Below are positions 57,882-63,623 of a DNA stretch of 64,000 nt, piece by piece. Below the pieces are notes generated by a model. It was not told the DNA's origin. It saw nothing but the letters and a program-made list of their open reading frames with translations, and did not search any database. The DNA is taken from the NCBI GenBank assembly GCA_022614805.1, contig JAKEHY010000019.1:43918-107917 (forward strand), read 5' to 3'. Every line of letters starts with the position of its first letter. Positions within the stretch are counted from its first letter, which is position 1. The position numbers and the translations under genes are program-made. The DNA is from Candidatus Zixiibacteriota bacterium. GTDB taxonomy: Bacteria; Zixibacteria; MSB-5A5; DSPP01.

Positions 57882-58268
57882 CTACTTCACTTCCTCAACC
57901 GACTCCACGGCGATAGACGGACTTCCGCCAAAGTTGGAAACTTTGCCGGTTACCTTCACCTGCTTGTTCACCAACGGCGTAAGCAAATCGCGGTGCTTAC
58001 TGGACATCATCTGGCTCGAGACGGCCACGTACAGCTTCTTGTCCTTGGTTAAAATGCCAATCGGCAGACCATTTTTCAAACAGGTCTCCGCGCATTCCTG
58101 ATGGTCGCCGCCCAGCATCGTCCCTTTGGACTTCGAGCAACACTCGTAGTCCACCACTTGACCTGTGATGGTTTTCAGCGGCTCCTCCTTCTTGCCTTTT
58201 TCCTGGGCCCAAACGAGACCAAAAAGCGCTATGGAGAGCGCCAGGATCGTCACTGCTACCTTTTTCAT
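57882..58268 (-). CDS. Exported Cys-rich OB-like protein of the metal cluster
   Basis: The protein has 128 aa with a signal peptide (~1-21, ending VWAQ). The mature part begins with a strand TITGQVVDYECCSKSKG, then GGDHQECAETCLKNGLPIG, giving four cysteines and a His. The later LLTPLVNKQVKVTGKVSNFGG resembles an OB-fold strand pair. The Cys set and its position as the last gene of a metal operon suggest periplasmic metal or thiol handling. Very strong AAGGAGGTGATT ribosome-binding site. Family not recognised. Confidence 0.75.
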   Translation of the reverse strand: MKKVAVTILALSIALFGLVWAQEKGKKEEPLKTITGQVVDYECCSKSKGTMLGGDHQECAETCLKNGLPIGILTKDKKLYVAVSSQMMSSKHRDLLTPLVNKQVKVTGKVSNFGGSPSIAVESVEEVK

Positions 58269-58349: not shown

Positions 58350-58811
58350 TTAGGCCATGCGTGGCTGGGCGACTGGTTGCGTACCGTAAATAAGACCAAG
58401 TATGGCTCCATAGATTATGTGGCCCATCAAACTGCCGAACACGGTTATAAACGGCTGCAGGGTTTTGCTGGCAAAGAATCCGGCACCCATTATCGGCATC
58501 ACCATTGCCTGCGCCAGAAACCAGAGGATTAGACCCCACAGGATACCTTTTACAACGGGAGCACCCGGAAAACGGCTGTAAAGCAGGAAGGCAAAAATTA
58601 GGGGAAAGATGACCGTTCCATTCACAAAATGAATCAACATACCCATAAGCCAAGACCCACTCATTGCTGCGGGCATCCCTCCTCCCAGCATTCCGCCAAG
58701 CATCGATGCAATGTCCATTTTGGGCATCCCCATCATCGGGGCGATGTACATCAGCATCGTCATCGCCAGCGTGGCGACGAATCCTGCCAATAAAGCTTTT
58801 TTGAAACTCAC
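58350..58811 (-). CDS. DUF6789-like membrane protein
   Basis: The protein has 153 aa from GTG 58811 (AGGAGG upstream), with four transmembrane helices. The Met-rich opening LAMTMLMYIAPMMGMPKMDIASMLGG and the GSLMGHIIYGAILGLIYG end resemble the DUF6789/YagU-like group. Met-rich membrane segments can bind soft metals, which would suit the neighbourhood (inference). Function unknown. Confidence 0.75.
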   Translation of the reverse strand: MSFKKALLAGFVATLAMTMLMYIAPMMGMPKMDIASMLGGMLGGGMPAAMSGSWLMGMLIHFVNGTVIFPLIFAFLLYSRFPGAPVVKGILWGLILWFLAQAMVMPIMGAGFFASKTLQPFITVFGSLMGHIIYGAILGLIYGTQPVAQPRMA

Positions 58812-59542: not shown

Positions 59543-60139
59543 TTAATTTGTTTTCTCTGGTTTGGAGACGACCTTGTATCCCGACTTCTCCACGGCTAAC
59601 TTCAATCGATTCTTTTCGACCGAATCCGAAACCTTTACCACTGCTTTGCCTTCCTCCCAATTAACCTCTGCATCCACCACGCCGGGAACGCCGACAAGGG
59701 CGTTCTTCACATTCTGGGCGCACCCTTCGCAGGTCATCCCGGATATTCCCAATTCCACGGTTTGTGAAGCTTGAGTCGCTTGAATCACGGGGGCTTTGGT
59801 AGCGCCGATGCCCAGAGCCGGTCCCCACTGGGGATAAAAAGCCAGTGCAACGGCAAAAACTGCCACTGTCCAGAGAGTGATTTTCTGGGTCCTGCCCGCA
59901 GTTTTGACCTTGCAAGTTCCATCTTCGCAAGCAACCTCTCTTTTACGGTAGGTTAAAAAGAAAGCCAGCCCCAAAAAACCAAAGGTGACCATCATAAACA
60001 ACGGCCGCCACTTTTCCAGCGCGACGGCGAAGCCGAAGCTGCCGAAACCCAATAGCGAAAAAACCAAAGGCCCGATACAGCAAGCCGAAGCCACCAGTCC
60101 CGATAGTATTGAACCGCCTTTAATCCATCCTGTACGCAT
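59543..60139 (-). CDS. merTP: MerT-MerP fusion, mercuric ion transporter
   Basis: The protein has 198 aa. The MerT part has three transmembrane helices and the paired cysteines C20-C21 (ASACCIGPL) of helix 1; C71 and C76 lie in the loop (ACEDGTC). The C-terminal MerP/HMA domain (~127-195) has the metal site GMTC137EGC140. MerT takes Hg(II) through the inner membrane, and MerP hands it over in the periplasm; a fused form is known in FCB bacteria. No merA reductase is in the window. Ribosome site TAGGAGG. Copper transport is the alternative, given CsoR upstream. Confidence 0.9.
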   Translation of the reverse strand: MRTGWIKGGSILSGLVASACCIGPLVFSLLGFGSFGFAVALEKWRPLFMMVTFGFLGLAFFLTYRKREVACEDGTCKVKTAGRTQKITLWTVAVFAVALAFYPQWGPALGIGATKAPVIQATQASQTVELGISGMTCEGCAQNVKNALVGVPGVVDAEVNWEEGKAVVKVSDSVEKNRLKLAVEKSGYKVVSKPEKTN

Positions 60140-60163: not shown

Positions 60164-60475
60164 TTAACTTCTTAAAACTTGAGCTAAAGCCCGTTTCAAA
60201 CTGGTCAAGGCCTGGTTGGCCTTGCCCTTTTGGGCACTTTCCAAAACGCAGGTTTCCATATGCCCTTCCAGAAGCTGAAGGGTTACCTCGTCCAAAGCCC
60301 GCTTTACGGCCGCCAGTTGAACCAGCATCGCATCGCAGTCCTCGTGCCTTAAAAGCATTCCGCGAACCCCTTCCACGTGGCCGCGGATGCGGGCCAGCCG
60401 GTCGGAGAGTTCTTTCTCGGTGTCCGGAGTCAAATAGACCGAGGAATCACACTTAATTATCTCCTTTGTTTTCAT
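60164..60475 (-). CDS. csoR: CsoR-type metal-sensing repressor
   Basis: The protein has 103 aa from ATG 60475 (AAGGAG upstream). It is all-helical DUF156. The metal ligands are C47, H72 and C76 (HMETCV), with the 25- and 4-residue spacing of CsoR C36-H61-C65. Cu(I) is the expected inducer; the RcnR/FrmR subtypes have different N-terminal ligands. It is the first gene of a run CsoR-MerTP-AhpD. Two copies of a GC-rich palindrome, at 60527 and 60819, are its likely operators. Confidence 0.93.
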   Translation of the reverse strand: MKTKEIIKCDSSVYLTPDTEKELSDRLARIRGHVEGVRGMLLRHEDCDAMLVQLAAVKRALDEVTLQLLEGHMETCVLESAQKGKANQALTSLKRALAQVLRS

Positions 60476-60526
60476 CTCTTCTCCTTCTTCAAAGCCGCTT
60501 GTGACCATTTACATACCGTATAACAT

Positions 60527-60543
60527 ATCCCCCCCAGGGGGAT
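60527..60543 (-). promoter_or_regulatory. CsoR-type operator upstream of csoR
   Basis: ATCCCCCCCAGGGGGAT, a G/C-block palindrome of the CsoR operator kind, 51 nt upstream of the csoR start. It matches the site at 60819-60835 in 15 of 17 positions. Confidence 0.65.
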
Positions 60544-60570
60544 GTTCCCGAAAATAAAAAATCTTTTGGT

Positions 60571-60804
60571 CTATCCGGCCAAAAGACTTTCCAGTTTTTT
60601 AACGTCAAACCCCACCACTGCTTCCCCGTCAATAATAGTCACTGGCGTGGAGTAGTAACCCAACTTTTGCAATTCTTCCATTGCCTTCTCATCCTCGGCC
60701 ACATTTCGCTCGGTGTAGGCAATACCTTTCTTCGAAAGAAACTCTTTCGCTTTCGTGCAGAAGATTCAACCGGGCTGGCTGTAAACAGTTACCGCTTTCG
60801 GCAT
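60571..60804 (-). CDS. Selenocysteine-containing glutaredoxin-like protein (in-frame TGA)
   Basis: The 77-residue frame runs from ATG 60804 (GAGGAGG upstream) to TAG 60571. One TGA at 60766-60768 falls at residue 13, where glutaredoxins have the first active-site Cys: VYSQPG-U-IF-C-TKAKEFL. The rest is a complete small glutaredoxin (NrdH-like), including the STPVTIIDGE cis-Pro region at ~52-61 and the VVGFDVKKLESLLAG end. A hairpin at 60733-60749, starting 16 nt after the TGA, fits the bacterial SECIS model. Likely a U-x-x-C selenoprotein. A nonsense mutation is the alternative. Confidence 0.8.
60733..60749 (-). promoter_or_regulatory. Predicted SECIS hairpin of the seleno-glutaredoxin
   Basis: 6-bp stem CGAAAG/CTTTCG with loop AGTTT, inside the coding region. 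The loop starts 22 nt after the TGA (bacterial SECIS elements: about 16-37 nt) and has a G within its first two bases, as required for SelB binding. Confidence 0.6.
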
Positions 60805-60818
60805 CTTTCCTCCTCATT

Positions 60819-60835
60819 ATCCCCCCTTGGGGGAT
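60819..60835 (-). promoter_or_regulatory. CsoR-type operator upstream of the seleno-glutaredoxin gene
   Basis: ATCCCCCCTTGGGGGAT, 14 nt before the ATG at 60804. Same block palindrome as at 60527. It is flanked by TTGGAC and TAATGA in the minus-strand direction with 17 nt between. The site overlaps the promoter or early leader, so repression by CsoR seems likely. Confidence 0.6.
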
Positions 60836-60881
60836 AGTCCAAAATAATAAAAAGCCCTCTGCGGTCAAGCTTTTTTTGCAT

Positions 60882-61853
60882 TCAACCGCCAAAAAGATGG
60901 AAGCCGTAACCCAAGCCGAACCGCAAGGTCCAGTCCTCGGTCAACTGGCTTCCGTTAACGAATTGATAGACCGGAACCTCCCAGTTGGCCCACACCTGCA
61001 CTCCGTGAATGCCCCGCCCGAAAAACGAAGTAGTGACCCCGGGGGTGACAAAAATCCAGTTGCCGCCGCTGTTGGCAAACGGCTGCCCGTCAATTTCGTC
61101 TCTCGCGCGGTGAAGGCCGCTGAATCTCAAGGACAAATCCAAGCCAGAATTTTCGGAAAATACGAAGGAATAGCCGGTCCCGGCTCCCAACAGCACAAAG
61201 CTTCCCGTTTTCGTTCCATCCTCGGCTTCATCCAAAACGAGACGAGTGTAAAAATTGGCATTTGCGCTCCAAGGGCCGGTCAAGGAGAAAAGAACGGAAC
61301 CGAGAAGAACCGGGTCCACCGTGCCGGAAACAAAATTCCGGTCGGAGGCCACCGGATTCTTGATTCCCCCTCCGGTGGGAAGATTGACCCCACCCCCCAC
61401 GGAAACCATCGTAGGAGCGGCAAAGTAACCCAACGACCAGTAGTATTGGGCCGCCACGCTCAACTCGCCCAGCTTTGTATCTTGGGTATTTACAGGTTGA
61501 TTTTGTAGGGTCCGGCCCTTAAAGGCCACGTCAATGAGCGGAAGGACAGCCCGCAGGGCCAGCCGGTCGGTCACCCCGTAACTTGCCTCCGAAGTCCAGA
61601 CCCAAGAGCGCGAGGATTGACCAAGCGGATTGCTTCCCACCGTCTTTCCACTCCGGAGGTCCGCCCGCCGAGTATAGCCCGTAGAAAGGCCGAACTGTAG
61701 GTGGCCTTTATGCAGCGCGCTGGCTTCCGTCCTGCCGACCGGCAGGTGAGGCGACCCTCAAAGTCCTCACTGGCCTTTGGCGCCGGGGGCCGTCAGCATT
61801 CCTAACACCCACATAGCCGCCAAGCCCCAAAAATTCCTAAGAAGCCGTTTCAT
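60882..61853 (-). CDS. Outer-membrane beta-barrel protein with UxxU (two in-frame TGA), predicted selenoprotein
   Basis: The 323-codon frame starts at ATG 61853, which overlaps the thioredoxin-like stop (ATGA). A signal peptide (MKRLLRNFWGLAAMWVLG ... GAKGQ) is followed directly by TGA-Gly-Leu-TGA-Gly-Ser (residues 29-34), then an uninterrupted barrel-type frame to 60882. The TGAs at 61767-61769 and 61758-61760 are the only stops and sit as U-x-x-U, where a CxxC would be natural. A hairpin with GGUC loop lies 17 nt after the second TGA. The mature strands (LQFGLSTGYTRR, TVDPVLLGSVLFSL, GLGYGFHLFGG) suggest a phenol-degradation-porin-like channel. Conventional calling would report only the part from GTG 61640. 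Confidence 0.78.
61731..61746 (-). promoter_or_regulatory. Predicted SECIS hairpin of the UxxU barrel protein
   Basis: Perfect 6-bp stem CCTGCC/GGCAGG with loop GGTC (GGUC in RNA), the loop sequence of the E. coli formate dehydrogenase SECIS. The loop begins 17 nt after the second TGA and 26 nt after the first, within the range for both. One hairpin could serve both codons. Confidence 0.72.
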
Positions 61854-62113
61854 AATTTCACCCCAAGCCCAAGGCCCCGAAGAACGACGGCATCTATTCC
61901 TTCCTGACAACAGTCCGCCAGTTTTCCATTCACGGCCACGGCTGGCACCCGCTTCACGCCGTACTGCTGGGCCCGGGCTTGAGCTTCCTTCTCGTTGCGC
62001 AGGTCCAAAATCCGAATGTCGCAGCTCGGACAGGCAAGACTCTCTACCTGTTTTACGGCCTCGTCGCAGACCGGGCAGCCGACCGTAAATATTTCGATGG
62101 TGCGGGTTTTCAT
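61850..62113 (-). CDS. Thioredoxin-like redox or metal-relay protein
   Basis: The protein has 87 aa from ATG 62113 (AAAGGAG upstream), overlapping the merR stop (ATGA). The active site C13-P-V-C16 lies in EIFTVGCPVCDEAVK. The cis-Pro region is VKRVPAVAVNGKLAD (~60-74). Further cysteines lie in LACPSCD and DCCQEG. There is no signal peptide, so it is cytosolic. It sits between the mercury sensor and the UxxU barrel gene and would act in thiol reduction or metal relay. Confidence 0.87.
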   Translation of the reverse strand: MKTRTIEIFTVGCPVCDEAVKQVESLACPSCDIRILDLRNEKEAQARAQQYGVKRVPAVAVNGKLADCCQEGIDAVVLRGLGLGVKL

Positions 62114-62541
62114 AGTTTTACTCCTTTCTTCTGCTTGGAGTTGTCGAGCGATTCTAAGATTGGGCACTCACGGGTGGAACCATTATGCACACACGTCTTA
62201 ACCAGCACCTGAAGGGCGTGACGCACGGCGCATAAACTGTCTATTTTATGGTCAATGTCGGCAATCTTGGCGTTGGCTCTGGCACGCACATCCGCACAGC
62301 TTGCGTCGTGGTCATCCCGCAACCATAAGAGCTCCTGAATCTCTGTCAGCATAAAGCCAAGCTCCTGGGCTCGTTTTATGAATCGAATCAACTGGACGGT
62401 GTCCGGTGAGTACTCCCGGTACCCGGATGGCCGCCGGTCGGGCTTCTTTAAGAGCCCGCGCCTTTCGTAATAGCGCAGGGTTTGGATGTTGACGCCCGCT
62501 TCTCTTGCCACCTCTCCGATACGAAACCGTTCTTTGCTCAC
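62110..62541 (-). CDS. merR: MerR, mercury-responsive transcriptional regulator
   Basis: The protein has 143 aa from GTG 62541 (GGAG upstream). The DNA-binding winged helix is FRIGEVAREAGVNIQTLRYYERRGL. With this start the metal ligands fall exactly at C82, C117 and C126, the numbers of Tn501 MerR (ASC, KTC, RECPIL), which both confirms the start and points to Hg(II). It is the first gene of the operon merR-thioredoxin-UxxU barrel, and its promoter carries a MerR-type operator. Confidence 0.95.
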   Translation of the reverse strand: MSKERFRIGEVAREAGVNIQTLRYYERRGLLKKPDRRPSGYREYSPDTVQLIRFIKRAQELGFMLTEIQELLWLRDDHDASCADVRARANAKIADIDHKIDSLCAVRHALQVLVKTCVHNGSTRECPILESLDNSKQKKGVKL

Positions 62542-62559
62542 ATTCAACTCCACGCCTGC

Positions 62560-62591
62560 AATATACACCCTATACCTAAGTATAGAGTCAA
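62560..62591 (-). promoter_or_regulatory. MerR-type promoter with operator in a 20-nt spacer
   Basis: TTGACT (62586-62591), 20-nt spacer, TATATT (62560-62565). The over-long spacer contains the palindrome CTATAC/GTATAG (62570-62585). This arrangement is diagnostic of MerR-family activation by promoter untwisting. The start codon follows 18 nt later. Confidence 0.82.
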
Positions 62592-62879: not shown

Positions 62880-63623
62880 TTACCCCACGTTCTGCAGGCC
62901 GGGAAAGGTCTCCAAAAACCAGTTGGCGATAATCCCCAGCTGGTTAAAGAACATCAAAAGCCCGATGCCGACCAAAAGCAGGCCGGAGAGGATTTCGATG
63001 GCGCGGAAATGCTTTTTGAAGAAGCCGGAAAAACCGATAAACCAGTTAAAGCTGACTGCGGTTACCAGAAACGGGATGCCTAAGCCCAAGGAGTAAAACG
63101 TTAAAAGCAGCATCCCTTCCCCCACCGTTCCCTGGTTGGCCGCCAGGCCCAAAATTCCGCCTAAAATCGGCCCGATGCAGGGGGTCCAACCGAAGGCAAA
63201 GGCGATTCCGACTAAAAAGGTGCCGAGAGCGCCCAAGGGCTTGGAGCGGGTTTGAAAACGCTTTTCGTAATTCAAGAACGGGATACGAATGATGCCCATC
63301 ACGTGCAGCCCCAGAATCACGATGACGACCCCGGCGATGCGGTTGAAAAGCCCGATTTTGTTGGAGAGCAGAAATTTTCCGACCGCCGTGGCGGAAGCGC
63401 CCAAGGTTATGAAAACGGCTGAAAAGCCCAAAACGAAAATAAAGGAGCTTAAGGCCACCTTGCGCAAAACCTCCCCCCGTTTTTCCACTGCGCTCATATC
63501 CGCCACCGAAACGCCGGAGATAAAAGACAAGTACCCCGGAATCAGGGGCAGAACGCAGGGGGAGATGAAAGAGATGAAGCCCGCGCCGAGCGCCGCTATT
63601 AAGCTGATGTTCTCTGTAAACAT
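62880..63623 (-). CDS. ccdA: CcdA-type cytochrome c biogenesis/thiol-disulfide transmembrane protein
   Basis: The protein has 247 aa with six transmembrane helices. Cysteines lie in helix 1 (ISPCVLPLIPG, C23) and helix 4 (GWTPCIGP), as in DsbD/CcdA. It carries reducing power from cytosolic thioredoxin across the inner membrane to periplasmic thiols. Here it precedes the Cys-rich peptide and the metal-redox cluster, and could keep their thiols (and selenols) reduced. Confidence 0.93.
   Translation of the reverse strand: MFTENISLIAALGAGFISFISPCVLPLIPGYLSFISGVSVADMSAVEKRGEVLRKVALSSFIFVLGFSAVFITLGASATAVGKFLLSNKIGLFNRIAGVVIVILGLHVMGIIRIPFLNYEKRFQTRSKPLGALGTFLVGIAFAFGWTPCIGPILGGILGLAANQGTVGEGMLLLTFYSLGLGIPFLVTAVSFNWFIGFSGFFKKHFRAIEILSGLLLVGIGLLMFFNQLGIIANWFLETFPGLQNVG

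Follow-up and report, generated by a model that had tools for sequence, protein, structure and literature searches.

A predicted double-selenocysteine outer-membrane barrel of Zixiibacteriota, encoded largely in mer-type gene clusters

A gene for an outer-membrane beta-barrel with two in-frame TGA codons was identified in a 64,000-nucleotide stretch of Candidatus Zixiibacteriota DNA (hereafter the window), and both codons very likely encode selenocysteine (Sec, U) in the arrangement UxxU. No mass spectrometry or 75Se data are available, and the assignment is a prediction. The conserved UxxU motif, the SECIS hairpin, the Sec machinery, the match of the barrel fold and the mer-type gene neighbourhood are shown by sequence. 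The double-Sec reading, in which we have high confidence, rests on the conserved TGAs, the covarying SECIS, the suppressed synonymous variation and the Sec machinery. An earlier note, made from the sequence alone, had proposed a U-x-x-U double-selenocysteine protein; this proposal is supported, and every test named in it that could be run gave a favourable result.

The gene occupies the minus-strand frame 61853-60882. It runs for 324 codons from ATG to TGA, with in-frame TGAs at codon 29 (Sec1, 61767-61769) and codon 32 (Sec2, 61758-61760), and gives a protein of 323 amino acids when both TGAs are read as Sec, followed by the terminal TGA. The translation begins MKRLLRNFWGLAAMWVLGMLTAPGAKGQ-U-GL-U-GSPHLPVGRTEAS, and the rest of the frame is uninterrupted and barrel-like. 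Codons 1-27 (61773-61853) were assigned by inspection as a signal peptide, with a predicted helix at residues 2-21. The TGAs sit right behind it and are followed by the intact barrel (codons 51-322, 60888-61703), which was assigned a COG4313-like fold from a predicted model and its structural match. The ATG is part of an ATGA overlap, and the upstream thioredoxin-like gene (61850-62113, minus strand; CxxC in the form GCPVC) terminates at that TGA. Therefore, TGA is also a genuine stop in the window. The frame, its length, the TGA positions, the intact downstream frame, the terminal TGA and the overlapping start described in the earlier note all held. The possibility that U serves as the lipid anchor of a lipobox was rejected, as Q or G precedes the first U (AQU/GQU/FGU) and no lipobox fits.

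Ten further Zixiibacteriota genomes carry both TGAs in identical alignment columns at a protein identity of only 26-36%, bringing the carriers in this phylum to 11. A search of 98 related genomes yielded seven homologues (28-37% identity), each with exactly two in-frame TGAs, and a profile search of all 132 available genomes of the phylum yielded 10 complete genes and one gene split over two contigs (G113). The UxxU homologues share the motif QUALU(S/T)(S)PNLPVGRSE..IHKGDL and form a single clade in the tree with a support of 100/99. With 11 independent genomes, an assembly error at the two codons is improbable. An alternative explanation is that the TGAs are ordinary stops, the upstream sequence is dead and a shorter barrel is made from an internal GTG (61640). 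Gene callers using table 11 would indeed report only 60882-61640. Against this, the signal peptide, the TGAs and the flanking stretch are conserved in frame across the 11 genomes at the identities given above, a barrel from 61640 would have neither the signal peptide nor complete first strands, and the SECIS and the Sec machinery are present. The UxxU is kept in the homologues and none of them begins downstream without the motif; homologues of the latter kind were what the earlier note would have taken as a refutation. The ordinary-stop explanation is very unlikely and is refuted in practice by the conservation.

The SECIS candidate is the hairpin CCTGCC-GGTC-GGCAGG (61731-61746, minus strand). 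It begins 11 nt past the second TGA, and the distance to the start of its GGUC loop is 17 nt from that codon and 26 nt from the first TGA. The bSECIS model calls for a loop of 3-9 nt with an early G, a stem of 4-16 bp, a spacing of 16-37 nt and a minimum free energy of at most -7.5 (PMC13188914). The window hairpin meets this model with its GGUC loop, a stem of 6-7 bp and -18.0 kcal/mol, and so do most of the homologue hairpins, the exception being L064, whose value of -6.3 is above the energy limit. An Rfam search of 60400-62200 was without a match. Synonymous resampling also met a SECIS-like test in 199 of 3000 cases (6.6%). By itself, the hairpin of the window would thus carry little weight; it is the conservation that makes the SECIS convincing. 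The hairpin core, CTGCC-GGTC-GGCAG, lies at the same place in every homologue compared. Over 11 sequences, 94.8% of the cells are paired and three pairs are changed on both sides, against 23-56% paired cells in the control in which the partner was slid by 1-3 columns. The synonymous codon identity at codons 37-41 is 0.85 versus a mean of 0.40 (89 scored codon columns), and the top-scoring four-codon windows for synonymous conservation all fall within these hairpin codons. The hairpin noticed earlier, with its GGUC loop 17 nt after the second TGA, has thus held as a conserved and covarying SECIS candidate. This single hairpin within the reading frame would serve both UGAs via SelB and tRNA-Sec, being within the permitted distance of each.

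The machinery for Sec insertion was found in the genome to which the window belongs (2.56 Mb, 93% complete). The selB, selA and tRNA-Sec (tca) genes are neighbours on contig C12; a selD gene is also present and has its own in-frame TGA. The earlier suggestion to check the genome for selA, selB, selC and selD is met by the presence of all four genes. Full-length selA was found in 11 of 11 Zixiibacteriota carriers; the SelA frame of one of them (G084, contig C64, 9957-11036) contains one in-frame TGA. A genome-wide reassignment of TGA, for example to Trp, could also account for in-frame TGAs in several genes. This is all but excluded: the barrel gene and the thioredoxin-like gene terminate at TGA, the tRNA with the tca anticodon is tRNA-Sec beside selA and selB, and the TGAs fall at redox or metal motifs (the glutaredoxin UxxC and SelD).

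Cys-containing orthologues are usual for nearly all known selenoprotein families, and are not strictly defining. Cys at both U positions was found in no homologue among the 132 phylum genomes. A Cys orthologue was seen neither in 395 sampled genomes of the phylum of G132, where only CxC/CC relatives occur besides the UxxU metagenome-assembled genome (MAG), nor among the tblastn-confirmed matches of a pattern scan of 84,980 genomes. The profile search for Cys orthologues was limited to the Zixiibacteriota phylum and the sample from the phylum of G132. Without a known Cys orthologue, the UxxU barrel would escape selenoprotein searches that are based on Cys. The query of the genome-collection scan was built from six aligned relatives, cut off behind the UxxU motif; the window protein alone retrieved nothing, since the peptides sampled from it are not conserved. 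The contigs with a UxxU barrel in this collection were titled Candidatus Zixiibacteriota, save for one MAG labelled Bacteroidetes, in which the UxxU mer cluster L064 lies on JAJRQT010000162. Spread to another phylum was considered for this carrier and rejected, as the genome is without a real SelA and has only a partial weak match. The gene order of the L064 contig from the mer cluster onward is common to a Zixiibacteriota contig of the same sample series. The missing SelA and the shared gene order make misbinning more likely than spread, and L064 is probably a Zixiibacteriota contig. The only match among the plasmids searched was a 'transporter' of 23% identity in Candidatus Manganitrophus, and the SECIS-plus-UxxU DNA pattern had no match in viral contigs. 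One paralogous barrel (L024:1531, on contig C15 of G051) has just one TGA, in the place of the second Sec (GVKUASPNLPVGR), and its hairpin, TCTCCC-GGTC-GGGAGA, is a further compensated form. The remaining non-UxxU homologues carry CSCGG, CCAP or CGAAIC behind the signal peptide and group in separate clades.

The window protein is very likely an outer-membrane channel, as predicted by modelling. It had no Pfam or NCBIfam match, and only the L003 member of the family passed the gathering score of PF13557 (22.5 versus 22), with no match for the window protein and the other members. The AlphaFold2 model obtained with nine aligned sequences is a barrel (pLDDT 74.5) with 12 listed strands, the last of which is long (285-319). 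The model has an N-terminal helix corresponding to the signal peptide, and residues 25-44, which hold the UxxU, are poorly determined. The best structural match was the COG4313 channel 4rl8, with a Z score of 21.5 and an rmsd of 2.8 over 248 residues at 14% identity, and the second was FapF. The COG4313 or Phenol_MetA_deg channels (Pput2725, PDB 4rl8; TcpY and SphA) are likewise 12-strand barrels of the same length class. The pore of 4rl8 is nearly closed from the periplasmic side by about 14 residues preceding strand 1, which fold into the lumen (PMC4493636). Where 4rl8 has this plugging segment, the window barrel has about 23 residues from the expected cleavage site to strand 1 (residue 51), with U at mature positions 2 and 5. 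By analogy with 4rl8, the selenols may therefore lie in or near the pore plug. This location is inferred, and it rests on analogy because residues 25-44 are poorly determined. Neither selenocysteine nor a linkage to mer genes is described for COG4313 channels in the sections of PMC4493636 bearing on it, whereas the window barrel has both, the former by prediction. The substrates of those channels are thought to be hydrophobic (PMC4493636).

The barrel gene lies in a mer-type operon in 7 of the 11 genomes (G000, G023, G046, G112, G084, G087 and G113). In the window, where all of these genes are on the minus strand, the order is MerR, thioredoxin-like, barrel, glutaredoxin-like UxxC, CsoR and MerTP. 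The MerR-type regulator (62110-62568) has Hg(II) MerR proteins as its nearest solved relatives and keeps the three metal-binding Cys positions; CadR also keeps Cys at these positions. The top model of the MerR proteins is the mercury model TIGR02051 at 130-141 bits, below the cut-off of 150.85. Similarly, the MerTP fusion (MerT plus HMA, 59543-60139) scores best against mercury models, yet below the NCBIfam cut-off. A CsoR-type metal-sensing repressor is encoded at 60164-60508. The glutaredoxin-like gene (60571-60804) carries UxxC (SQPGUIFC) with a TGA at 60766-60768 and its own SECIS-like hairpin, whose loop begins 23 nt after that TGA; it is a second selenoprotein of the cluster, of the known YruB/NrdH-type family. 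A CcdA/DsbD-type transmembrane protein for periplasmic electron supply is encoded at 62880-63623, and its membership of the same operon is inferred. A Met/Gly-rich membrane protein (58350-58811) and a secreted multi-Cys protein (57882-58268), both on the minus strand, have no confident NCBIfam match.

Two other gene orders were found. In G084, G087 and G113 the order is MerR, a DF-family protein (NF049942), MerC (PF03203) and the barrel, and a MerP/HMA gene lies between MerC and the barrel in G084 and L064. In G023, G046 and G112 it is MerR, a MerT/HMA fusion, the DF-family protein and the barrel, the DF gene having been read in G046 and G112 only. Upstream of the barrel, the genes overlap or are separated by a short gap, of 2-30 nt where it was read. 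In four carriers (G035, G051, G068 and G125) the barrel gene is outside a recognisable mer cluster; HMA and arsenate-reductase genes lie about 2-3 kb from it in G035. No MerA was seen in the barrel clusters. Only G051, G068 and G132 have a MerA above the cut-off, at a genomic site away from the barrel gene. Thus, with such a MerA in only two Zixiibacteriota carriers and away from the barrel, the cluster is not a classical mer operon.

We propose that the protein is an outer-membrane channel associated with mer genes and bearing a diselenol site for Hg(II) or another soft metal in or near the pore, a model that we favour by a modest margin in the absence of biochemical data. The earlier guess of a metal trap or redox site on a channel gains support from the mer-type neighbourhoods and the COG4313 fold. 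In the proposed model, a secreted 12-strand channel of the COG4313 fold would carry two selenocysteines in its mature N-terminus, QUxLU..PxLPVGR. If the N-terminal segment ahead of strand 1 behaves as in the solved COG4313 channel, it would enter the pore on the periplasmic side and place the selenols at the plug. The two selenols may bind Hg(II), another soft metal or an organomercurial. The metal would then be handed to a periplasmic HMA/MerP domain and the MerT/MerC inner-membrane transporter of the same cluster, or be held at the plug, and the thioredoxin- and glutaredoxin-like partners would keep the selenols reduced. The position of UxxU in the pore, the identity of the metal and the direction of transfer are all inferred. 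That metal binding is the job of UxxU is likewise an inference without biochemical data, and the case for it is evenly balanced.

The main rival, which remains possible, is a double-Sec barrel whose UxxU is a redox centre for diselenide/diselenol exchange, coupled to the thioredoxin- and glutaredoxin-like neighbours and CcdA, rather than a metal site. The CxxC-type spacing, the genes for a thioredoxin-like CxxC protein, the glutaredoxin UxxC and CcdA in the window cluster, and the thioredoxin-fold DF-family protein in other clusters are in its favour, and known selenoproteins are mostly redox proteins (PMC13188914). On the other hand, CcdA, the glutaredoxin and the CxxC thioredoxin were seen in the window cluster only, the partners found repeatedly are metal genes (MerR, MerC or MerT-like, HMA), and the N-terminal segment of a channel is no thioredoxin fold. 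In another alternative, the channel exports or sheds metal, through efflux or as an outer-membrane trap keeping Hg outside, without delivery to MerP. MerA above the cut-off is missing from most carriers, a P-type heavy-metal ATPase adjoins the cluster in L063/L064, and the COG4313 channel is almost impassable for hydrophilic solutes (PMC4493636). However, the ATPase is on the opposite strand and was found in one lineage only. MerP, MerT and MerC homologues are importers in classical systems. Export or shedding is considered unlikely.

The mer-associated metal channel can also be read more boldly, as a dedicated outer-membrane mercury port in which the obligate diselenol of the plug captures Hg(II) or methylmercury and passes it to MerP/MerT. 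Here 'obligate' means that the site is never Cys in any genome searched. The affinity of mercury for selenols is exceptional. To our knowledge, no dedicated mercury entry protein is known at the outer membrane. We hold the port to be more doubtful than the general model, with the balance tipping slightly against it. If true, it would give a mer system an outer-membrane component and be the first case of a selenium-based metal site in a channel of the outer membrane. The UxxU barrel would link selenium to mercury at the outer membrane, and its UxxU offers a concrete two-residue site in a channel of known fold.

A 2026 review lists 119 selenoprotein families (PMC13188914), from which the UxxU barrel is apparently missing; standard annotation cuts off its signal peptide and active motif. 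The statement of the earlier note that no beta-barrel selenoprotein was known to it needs correction, as two outer-membrane barrel selenoproteins are already in that list, namely the GSU2204 family (MtrB/PioB-like; NF041027) and the TonB-dependent receptor of FCYXU type (NF049945). Like the window protein, they are outer-membrane barrels with predicted Sec. Unlike it, they belong to other barrel families and have one Sec each and no UxxU. The window protein is thus not the first barrel selenoprotein but represents a new family that differs from these in fold and motif. No model of the NCBIfam library matched the tested UxxU barrels above its cut-off, the inventory of PMC13188914 has no COG4313-type channel, and the open-access literature searched held no description of a UxxU barrel for Zixiibacteriota or of an outer-membrane mer selenoprotein. 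The combination of the COG4313 fold, the UxxU motif and the mer linkage appears to be new.

UxxU or Sec in mercury-type metal transfer is already represented by NF041115, a UxxU metal-binding selenoprotein listed as a putative mercuric reductase, and by Sec-containing MerT-type proteins (NF045683) (PMC13188914). NF041115 is an HMA-type domain and the MerT-type proteins reside in the inner membrane, whereas the window protein is an outer-membrane channel. The sister barrels with CSCGG, CSCAG or CCSxG are of the same superfamily as the UxxU barrels and have a thiol motif right after the signal peptide; they differ in having CxC or CC instead of UxxU, a DUF3179 (PF11376) partner and a separate clade. 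Such sister barrels (L023, L010, L025, L019; L096, L098-L106) adjoin DUF3179 genes in Zixiibacteriota and Bacteroidota, and DUF3179 itself is among the listed selenoprotein families (PMC13188914).
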